NCBI GenBank assembly: GCA_004366385.1
Contig: ML178785.1
Location: 92,334-156,333, forward strand
Reading direction: 5' to 3'
DNA length: 64,000 bases
Source of the DNA: Actinomycetota bacterium
Lineage (GTDB): Bacteria > Actinomycetota > Thermoleophilia > Gaiellales > Gaiellaceae
Part shown: positions 38,462 through 39,846 of the stretch, piece after piece
How the letters are laid out: every line of letters begins with the position of its first letter
Numbering within the stretch: position 1 is the stretch's first letter
The notes under the pieces: generated by a model
Told to the model about the DNA's origin: nothing
What the model saw: only the letters and a program-made list of their open reading frames with translations
Database searches by the model: none
Translations under genes and position numbers: made by a program

Positions 38462-38471
38462 GCACCAACGA

Positions 38472-38545
38472 GGTGGCGGACGGGACTCGAACCCGCGACC
38501 ACCGGGACCACAACCCGGGGCTCTACCAACTGAGCTACCGCCACC
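38472..38545 (-). tRNA. tRNA-His(GUG)
   Basis: The minus strand folds with acceptor GTGGCGG/CCGCCAC, an extra 5' G facing the discriminator C (a histidine identity feature), anticodon arm CCGGG-TTGTGGT-CCCGG (anticodon GTG) and T loop TTCGAGT. Confidence 0.95.
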
Positions 38546-38595: not shown

Positions 38596-38624
38596 TTGAC
38601 ACTTCTGCGCCCGCGGCGTACCCT
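38596..38624 (+). promoter_or_regulatory. Sigma-70-type promoter for the rsgA leader transcript
   Basis: A consensus -35 TTGACA (38596-38601), 17-bp spacer and -10 TACCCT (38619-38624). It predicts a transcript beginning about 38631, with a leader of some 145 nt ahead of rsgA. This is the only promoter noticed in the window with a full -35 consensus and a long leader. Confidence 0.7.
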
Positions 38625-38654
38625 GGCTCGGTCGTCGAGCGAGAGGAGGACGTG

Positions 38655-38702
38655 ATGAAAGCCAGCTGCTGCATCGCCTTCCGGCTCGACGCCGCCCGCT
38701 AG
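38655..38702 (+). CDS. 15-codon leader peptide upstream of rsgA
   Basis: MKASCCIAFRLDAAR, with an AGGAGG Shine-Dalgarno (38644-38649) five bases before the ATG, the strongest ribosome-binding site in the window. Tandem Cys codons occupy positions 5-6 (38667-38672). It lies between a consensus promoter and the rsgA-proximal hairpin. The last three codons can base-pair with the left arm of that hairpin, suggesting a regulatory leader peptide rather than a functional protein. Too short for homology-based calling. Confidence 0.65.
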   Translation: MKASCCIAFRLDAAR

Positions 38703-38772
38703 CGCTTCACGATCAGGCGCTTCGTTCGGGCGGTGCGGGCCGTGGCCCGGTTCACCCATCCGAACGAAGGAG
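38692..38772 (+). promoter_or_regulatory. Candidate attenuator: alternative hairpins covering the rsgA ribosome-binding site
   Basis: Structure 1: CTTCGTTCGG (38720-38729) pairs perfectly with CCGAACGAAG (38760-38769). Further pairing inside is GGTG/CACC and CGGGCC/GGCCCG. The right arm runs into the rsgA Shine-Dalgarno AAGGAG (38767-38772). Structure 2: CCGCCCG (38692-38698, end of the leader ORF) pairs with CGGGCGG (38727-38733), which would disrupt structure 1. The two are mutually exclusive, which is the layout of leader-peptide translational attenuators. Confidence 0.55.
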
Positions 38773-38778
38773 ATCACG

Positions 38779-39846
38779 TTGTTCGATGAAGTCCTGGCCG
38801 CGCTCGGCTGGACCGACGAGCTCGAGGCGGCCTTCACGACTCATGCCGAGCGCGGCTTCGAGCCGGCTCGGGTCGTCGCGGAGCACCGCGGCGGCTACTA
38901 CGTCCGCAGCGCGCGCGGCGACCACCTCGCCCACGCGCGCGGGCGTCTGCGCGACCAGGAGCTCTGGGGCGCGATGCCCACGGTCGGCGACTGGGTCGCG
39001 ATCGTCGACGCGCCTGGCAACCACCGTGCGATCGAGGCCGTGCTCCCGCGGCGCACGAAGGTCTCGCGCAAGACGCCGTGGCTGAAGGCGGAGGAGCACG
39101 TCCTCGTCGCCAACGTCGACACGCTGTTCATCGTCACGGGGCTCGACGGCGACTTCAACGTGCGCCGGCTGGAGCGCTACCTCGTGGCCGCGTGGGACTC
39201 GGGCGCGGATCCCGTGCTCGTGCTCACGAAGCTCGACGTGTGCAACGACGACGGGGTTCTGCTGGAAGCAGAGGCCGCCGCGATCGGCGTCCCGGTCCTT
39301 GCCGTCTCGAACGTCACGGGGGAGGGGGTCGAGGAGCTGCGGGCGCTGCTGCGCCCCGCGCGCACGTTCGCGCTCCTCGGCTCGTCGGGCGTCGGGAAGT
39401 CCACGCTGATCAACCGTCTCGCCGGGCGCGAGCTCATGCCGACGGGCGGGCTGCGGAAGGACGGCCGCGGGCGGCACACGACGCGCCACCGACAGCTGCT
39501 CGTGCTCCCGGGAGGCGCGATCGTGATCGACACGCCCGGCCTCCGCGAGCTCCAGGTGTGGGAGGGCGACGTCGAGGAGGCCTTCTCCGACATCGCCGAG
39601 CTCGCAGCGCAATGCCGCTTCAACGACTGCGCGCACGTGACGGAGCCCGGCTGCGCGGTGCAGGAGGCACTCGAGACCGGCGAGCTCGACGACGGCCGCT
39701 GGGCGAGCTACCTCAAGCTCCAGCGCGAGCTGCAGTCGGTGAGGCGGAGGCGGGGCTCGCGCGAGCACCGCGAGCTCAAGCGGCGGTGGAAGGCGAGGGC
39801 GCGCGAGGTGCGGGCGATGCGCCGCTACAAGAACCGGATGGAGTGA
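38779..39846 (+). CDS. rsgA: Ribosome small subunit-dependent GTPase A (circularly permuted GTPase)
   Basis: A 355-residue RsgA/YjeQ-type GTPase acting in 30S maturation. Residues about 1-100 are the OB-fold region. The GTPase motifs appear in permuted order: G4 LTKLD (149-153), then G1 GSSGVGKSTL (201-210), then G3 DTPG (251-254). The C-terminal zinc motif is C279-C284-H286-C292. A basic C-terminal tail (RRRRGSREHRELKRRWKAR) fits rRNA binding. The start is TTG at 38779, preceded by AAGGAG. It sits behind a leader peptide and hairpin. Confidence 0.92.
   Translation: MFDEVLAALGWTDELEAAFTTHAERGFEPARVVAEHRGGYYVRSARGDHLAHARGRLRDQELWGAMPTVGDWVAIVDAPGNHRAIEAVLPRRTKVSRKTPWLKAEEHVLVANVDTLFIVTGLDGDFNVRRLERYLVAAWDSGADPVLVLTKLDVCNDDGVLLEAEAAAIGVPVLAVSNVTGEGVEELRALLRPARTFALLGSSGVGKSTLINRLAGRELMPTGGLRKDGRGRHTTRHRQLLVLPGGAIVIDTPGLRELQVWEGDVEEAFSDIAELAAQCRFNDCAHVTEPGCAVQEALETGELDDGRWASYLKLQRELQSVRRRRGSREHRELKRRWKARAREVRAMRRYKNRME

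Follow-up and report, generated by a model that had tools for sequence, protein, structure and literature searches.

Does the DNA upstream of an rsgA paralogue in a bacterium of the Gaiellaceae form a leader that controls this gene, and if so, to what does it respond? The gene lies in the window, the whole stretch of 64,000 nucleotides that was analysed and to which all positions refer, in a genome of 2.73 Mb in 63 contigs (G000). An initial annotation of the window had proposed that a ribosome stalled on tandem Cys codons of a short upstream ORF would free an RNA segment for an alternative pairing and in this way open the ribosome-binding site (RBS) of rsgA.

A short ORF and three predicted pairings precede rsgA

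All elements of the putative leader lie on the forward strand. A consensus promoter had been claimed upstream of the ORF, and the sequence shows a corresponding promoter-like site: TTGACA (38596-38601) is followed, after a spacer of 17 nt, by TACCCT (38619-38624), and transcription would start at about 38631. The ORF of 15 codons with a near-perfect Shine-Dalgarno (SD) sequence is also as annotated, AGGAGG being found at 38644-38649 and the ORF itself, MKASCCIAFRLDAAR, extending from an ATG at 38655 to a TAG that ends at 38702. Further downstream, the SD of rsgA, AAGGAG, occupies 38767-38772 and the gene, which starts with TTG and encodes 355 amino acids, occupies 38779-39846. Its product matches the RsgA_GTPase domain (PF03193, E = 1.3e-50) and scores above the cut-off of TIGR00157. 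A second RsgA copy in the same genome (L031, G000:C5:15559-16566) is 48% identical to it and is without a leader according to the script rule given below. Divergent from the leader promoter is a tRNA-His (GTG) on the minus strand (38470-38545); a tRNA is also found upstream at one of the related loci (L003).

Four segments of this region, termed arms 1 to 4, can pair. Arm 1 (38633-38649) consists of CGTCGAGC and the core of the leader SD, GGAGG, and arm 2 (38678-38691), which is inside the ORF, is complementary to it. In the predicted fold these two arms form a helix that the initial annotation had not named (1:2; 38633-38640 with 38684-38691 and 38645-38649 with 38678-38682) and that closes the leader's own SD. 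Arm 2' (38690-38698) is located at the ORF's end and can form a helix with 38727-38735 (2:3). The annotation was right about 38692-38698 and 38727-38733 but gave a shorter version of this helix, which has 9 bp, one of them G-U. Arm 3 (38722-38735) has as its partner either arm 2' or arm 4 (38753-38767), which lies immediately upstream of the rsgA SD and contacts it; the resulting hairpin (3:4) consists of 38722-38730 with 38759-38767 and 38732-38735 with 38753-38756. Because the pairing of 38690-38698 with 38727-38735 overlaps this hairpin, 2:3 and 3:4 exclude each other in the window, as had been proposed. That the hairpin sequesters the RBS of rsgA is true in part: it contacts the SD but does not bury it, since the first A of the SD alone is paired, and 38770-38776 remains unpaired when the leader is folded over its whole length. 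The region 38628-38800 folds with -82.9 kcal/mol (z = -2.83), and 1 of 200 shuffled sequences folded equally well.

The leader ORF and its promoter recur in Thermoleophilia

We collected the DNA upstream of RsgA homologues from 61 genomes in a search of relatives and from 399 genomes in a search of the class. Leader ORFs were called by a script that requires an SD match of at least 5, a length of 8-30 codons and an end at least 25 nt before rsgA. Left out before counting were L006, L093 and L095 (no start found), L028 (late start), the duplicates L051 and L052, L007 (the same locus, used as L049) and L053-L059 (other phyla or distant). One of the latter, from a Sideroxydans MAG (L053), has an unrelated Lys-rich ORF of 24 codons and a terminator-like hairpin before rsgA.

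The rule recovered a leader ORF in 63 of 93 upstream stretches, compared to 10 of 93 on the reverse complement, and in 78 of the 118 upstream stretches of the class, short stretches included. These 78 leaders and two found by eye (L002 and L041) make up the set of 80 leaders used below. All nine loci that have at least 60% identity and usable upstream DNA carry a leader ORF, eight by script and L002 by eye. Forty of the 118 stretches, L002 among them, are without a leader by rule, including several within the window's family (e.g., L081, L082, L106 and L111), and a few of the 80 leaders (L087, L094, L131) may be chance ORFs. Nine genomes with two RsgA copies have at least one leader; the other copy is leaderless in seven of the nine, including the window's genome, and two genomes (G017 and G297) have leaders before both copies.

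Of the 80 leaders, 78 start with ATG and 54 stop with TAG; the median length is 16 codons and the median gap to rsgA 73 nt. The mean length of the longest match to AAGGAGGT is 6.85 nt for the leader SDs, which were chosen partly by this feature, compared to 5.55 nt for rsgA. The best promoter-like site upstream of the leader has a mean score of 8.37 at the 80 loci and of 6.39 in 79 control stretches further upstream, and a score of at least 6.5 is reached by 97.5% of the leader loci compared to 58% of the controls. The promoter-like sites sit at a fairly steady distance upstream of the leader, and transcripts therefore probably start near arm 1. Judged from the promoter position, the leader ORF and rsgA would be part of one transcript.

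The arms fit the partners of their own locus best

The leader peptide varies, yet the ORF often retains a segment that is complementary to its own SD. In the window's genus the arms of 1:2 read GTCGAGC..GGAGG and CTTCC.GCTCGAC, and at other loci CGACG..GGAGG and CCTCC.CGTCG. We analysed the pairings with an alignment-free swap test, in which each arm's own partner is compared to partners from other loci (80 loci, 20,000 permutations). Own partners paired more strongly in 1:2 (-24.75 vs. -21.93 kcal/mol for permuted partners, z = -8.1, 0 of 20,000), in 2:3 (-31.66 vs. -29.76 kcal/mol, z = -4.1, 1 of 20,000) and in 3:4 (-19.43 vs. -17.65 kcal/mol, z = -5.8, 0 of 20,000). The control pairings 1:3 (z = +2.0), 1:4 (z = -0.6) and 2:4 (z = +1.3) showed no advantage of own partners at these 80 loci. 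When the window's genus and its near kin were removed, 1:2 and 3:4 held in the remaining 71 loci (0 of 20,000 each) and 2:3 was weaker (z = -2.8, 68 of 20,000). A first run with 34-35 loci agreed with the 80-locus result.

Other tests gave less. Shuffling codons yielded a modest signal for 1:2 (12 of 80 loci at p ≤ 0.05, combined p = 8e-5), under a null that left the stop region, where some groups seem to put arm 2, unshuffled. When 22 leaders from Thermoleophilia were folded as a consensus of their plain alignment, no pair emerged, which we think is due to the register of the arms shifting between groups. A search of the window against Rfam 15 returned tRNAs only, with no family match at gathering score, and a search of 11 loci down to E = 5 returned tRNAs and one chance miRNA match below gathering score. 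In a pattern search of its own genome the window site was the sole exact match to the arm-1 motif. With up to three mismatches the pattern was too loose for naming further targets (658 matches on both strands vs. 373 for a reversed control).

Comparison between loci shows that the ORF, the promoter and the three pairings are conserved. The annotated picture of a leader ORF with its own promoter, SD and linked pairings before rsgA is supported in relatives, which keep the ORF and the pairings and vary in the peptide sequence itself.

The leader extends to other actinobacteria

A search of 396 genomes of the phylum recovered leader ORFs in other families at 15 of 28 loci, including two doubtful cases, and, with a looser rule, at 15 of 20 further loci of other families; no control was run for either count. 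The leader is best represented in one genus with genomes of 5-12 Mb, which we label streptomycete-like on the basis of this size alone. There, 85 of 91 genomes carry this RsgA, and 29 of 30 loci have a leader, most of whose peptides follow the pattern M[AT]V...GAAR...TSV..G. An alignment of 28 of these leaders excludes L190, whose leader is unlike the others, and L192, which has none. All 27 gaps within the ORF in the 28 rows are multiples of three, compared to 24 of 99 in the spacer, and on this evidence the leader ORF appears to be kept as an ORF. A rough pairwise count of in-frame indels gave a much weaker signal, with 35% vs. 18% for the streptomycete-like leaders and 25% vs. 20% for those of Thermoleophilia.

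RNAalifold applied to the 28 leaders recovered, unprompted, 1:2 as GGAGGUG:CACCUCC (six pairs) and 2:3 as GUGGUC.CCGG:CCGGGGCCAC. It paired the GGG of the rsgA SD with a downstream CCC, not with the upstream CCC designated as part of 3:4. Moreover, 2:3 and 3:4 share about one base in these leaders and are hence scarcely exclusive. In alignment A2, in which 3:4 was specified, 98.2% of cells pair, compared to 40-57% when the arms are slid. A covariance model built from the 28 leaders had matches in 39 of 41 genomes (two matches each in five of these) and, across the order, in 124 of 147. Among 84 distinct matches 97.4% of cells pair. Two-sided changes occur in 14 of 24 pairs (39 cells; 0 of 500 shuffles), in an alignment that leans to the model, and two of the three 3:4 pairs are among those changing on both sides. 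Alignment A3 contains two antisense chance rows (L237 and L255) and was fitted to the structure under test. A small GGGC-loop-GCCC hairpin was also seen inside the streptomycete-like leader ORF (L182-L211). An Ala codon there, GCT, is kept in 21 of the 24 rows in which the motif was found; its wobble T is unusual, at 8% in the gene.

The leader also precedes other genes

Around extra, doubled or weak matches of the covariance model we read 8 and a further 17 stretches. Nine leaders (L223-L226 and L270-L274) stand before a methyltransferase-GNAT fusion of 414-426 amino acids, identified by Pfam on L223 and L224 and by eye in the rest, and one (L227) stands before a lone GNAT. In most other such stretches an RsgA-like frame was seen by eye downstream of the leader. 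The SD arm and the ORF arm of the leaders in these stretches vary jointly, for example with GGAGCUG:CAGCUCC replacing GGAGGUG:CACCUCC. The occurrence of the leader before the methyltransferase-GNAT fusion or GNAT suggests a small regulon in streptomycete-like genomes. Two matches (L269 and L276) were set aside, as the script found no leader ORF. Four genomes have second leader-bearing rsgA-like copies (L261, L263, L266, L268) with 124-179 amino acids to the stop in the examined frame, which may be broken or short forms.

Which RsgA copy bears the leader can be addressed through its neighbours. In G546 and G516 the other RsgA adjoins an EPSP synthase gene (aroA), and in G516 the leader-bearing RsgA adjoins a gene with Ada and AlkA domains. 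We take the aroA-linked copy to be SCO5211 of Streptomyces coelicolor. According to the available text of one study, SCO6149, a member of the RsgA/EngC paralogue pair of this species, depends on WblC and tetracycline and SCO5211 does not (PMC7157823). By elimination only, the leader-bearing streptomycete-like rsgA would be SCO6149.

How ribosomes on the leader may set access to rsgA

The reading we prefer, and consider somewhat probable, is that this region acts in cis as a leader through which the output of the RsgA paralogue is adjusted to the state of translation. It is likely to be a translation-sensing leader; we infer the sign of its response more weakly. The strong leader SD could pair with the segment inside the ORF (1:2), and the spacer could pair with the ORF end (2:3) or with the flank of the rsgA SD (3:4). 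Ribosomes on the leader would select which of these helices stand and thereby set the accessibility of the rsgA site. In the most likely scenario, ribosomes that reach the leader stop unhindered would remove arm 2', upon which 3:4 would close rsgA. Failed initiation or an early stall, caused by antibiotics or by any shortage, would leave 2:3 in place and raise rsgA. No specific amino acid would be sensed, and much of the leader peptide looks like a by-product of pairing.

We modelled these states by blocking the ribosome footprint at each stage and computing the cost of opening the rsgA SD. In the window the cost is 1.6 kcal/mol with the ribosome at the start compared to 4.2 kcal/mol at the end. 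Codon by codon it is uneven, being 4.6 kcal/mol with the first Cys codon in the P-site, 0.8 with the second and 0.3 one codon on, and for the free RNA it is 2.1 or 4.5 kcal/mol, varying with the length folded. Four relatives of the same genus differ from the window: start and end are about equal in L002, L003 and L004 and reversed in L049. The streptomycete-like leaders (n = 28) have costs of 5.7 kcal/mol at the start, 6.8 at the end and 5.9 when free. Thus, the claim that an early stall opens rsgA and full translation closes it agrees with the window and weakly with the streptomycete-like leaders, but not with the genus relatives nor with the Thermoleophilia leaders, whose mean is reversed.

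This reversal is what would be expected from positive coupling, in which translation of the leader would be required for opening rsgA, the ribosome at the leader stop disturbing 3:4. At 76 Thermoleophilia loci the mean cost of opening the rsgA SD is 5.15 kcal/mol with a ribosome at the start and lowest, at 4.75 kcal/mol, with one at the stop, compared to 5.30 kcal/mol for free RNA (p = 0.02). The cost at the stop is lower in 33 loci and higher in 16, and the effect is clear in L049. However, the window and the streptomycete-like leaders show the reverse, and the median distance from the leader stop to the rsgA start is 73 nt. We consider positive coupling rather unlikely.

Over 79 loci no general switch was seen, the rsgA SD being unpaired with a probability of 0.359 in free RNA, 0.367 with the ribosome at the start and 0.396 at the stop. 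Shuffled spacers in the same states gave 0.417, 0.413 and 0.434, and mean accessibility thus responds alike. The native spacers leave the rsgA SD less accessible (unpaired probability 0.359) than shuffled ones do (0.406-0.438), a difference in support of 3:4 acting as a lock. In these models a ribosome-driven switch appears possible in the window and weak in the streptomycete-like leaders, and was not seen as a general effect. Clades may differ in the sign of control, or the sign may depend on how the RNA folds as it is transcribed.

Other explanations of the leader

Control could instead be exerted by transcription attenuation, through an intrinsic terminator or Rho, with read-through set by translation of the leader. 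A precedent is wblC, which operates by a terminator according to the available text of PMC11550727, and at L021, L027 and L080 a GC hairpin followed by five T lies between the leader and rsgA. A wblC-type intrinsic terminator with a T run was, however, found neither in the window nor in the 28 streptomycete-like spacers, in which the longest T runs are 2 and at most 3, respectively, and a T run of 5 occurs in just 4 of the 80 spacers of the Thermoleophilia set. We consider transcription attenuation improbable. L021, L027 and L080 look as if it had been added on.

A more speculative proposal, to which we give little credence, is that the leader gauges the supply of initiation-competent 30S subunits. 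The near-perfect leader SD would be locked by the anti-SD in its own ORF, and plentiful mature 30S subunits alone would open it. Under a shortage of such subunits the leader would remain untranslated, leading to increased synthesis of RsgA, which acts in 30S maturation. If true, 30S assembly and the mRNA of one of its factors would be linked in a closed loop, phylum-wide and borrowed by other genes.

It is very unlikely that the stretch is a fixed structured 5' UTR with an ORF that loads ribosomes and no regulation. Equilibrium folds that barely respond to ribosome position would fit this explanation, but the arms of 2:3 and 3:4 fit best within their own locus, and other genes too are preceded by the complete unit. 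Finally, the cysteine-responsive attenuator, in which a shortage of Cys-tRNA would make ribosomes stall at the two adjacent Cys codons, is hardly credible. Adjacent TGC codons are indeed present in the leaders of the window and L003, but of the 80 leaders only 20 contain any Cys and 3 contain Cys-Cys, and close relatives have KVAYRIS or KATHFIL at this position. We know of no tie of RsgA to cysteine supply, and cysteine as the signal is largely refuted because the codons are lost in relatives of the same layout.

Relation to known leaders and significance

The translation-sensing leader that we prefer resembles several known systems. Erm-type translational attenuators combine a leader ORF and a masked RBS with 1:2, 2:3 and 3:4 helices, and the helix logic is the same here. 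In erm, however, the peptide matters and arm 1 is in the ORF, whereas here arm 1 is the leader SD and the peptide varies. In kind, the element would be a leader-ORF (uORF) attenuator whose logic is closest to that of toiL. In the available text on toiL, the uORF of E. coli topAI, the authors propose that the RBS is unmasked wherever in the uORF the ribosome stalls, and the peptide need not be specific (PMC12121999). Both are short ORFs that precede a gene whose RBS is masked; they differ in gene, host and sequence, and toiL is defined experimentally, whereas the rsgA leader is defined by comparison only.

The uORFs of whiB7/wblC, as described in the accessible parts of two papers (PMC11550727, PMC7157823), are likewise actinobacterial leader ORFs that read translation failure. 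They differ in that wblC uses a terminator and an antiterminator, whereas the rsgA leaders of the window and the streptomycete-like genomes are without a long T run. The streptomycete-like rsgA promoters have an A/T-rich tract before the -35 element, with a mean A+T of 0.60 (23 of 28 loci with a promoter called; no background was measured), which was not found at the window promoter, and the strict WblC motif GAAAWY occurs within 260 nt upstream at 7 of 28 streptomycete-like loci. In the are5sc and tiaA leaders of Streptomyces ABC-F genes, according to the available text, the RBS of the uORF also overlaps a regulatory hairpin and stalling occurs at the start codon, but control is transcriptional, responds to one drug group and serves resistance genes (PMC12421871). 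A list of eight S. lividans leaders describes them, in the part available, as leaders of amino-acid genes (PMC8079986). No description of an rsgA leader was found among the literature matches listed, a set that mostly leaves subscription papers outside its scope. In the two papers that contain both "rsgA" and "leader peptide", the latter term appears, as far as their text is available, in reference lists only.

The comparison points to an apparently undescribed regulatory leader on the RsgA paralogue, which is found from Thermoleophilia to streptomycete-like genomes and also before methyltransferase-GNAT. Peptide motifs of leader ORFs can be by-products of RNA pairing, which is a warning against calling stall codons from one sequence. 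In S. coelicolor, in which antibiotics are reported to induce one of the two RsgA genes through WblC, a leader would provide this response with a second sensor that reads translation directly. It would also make the regulation of a ribosome-assembly GTPase testable with one reporter.
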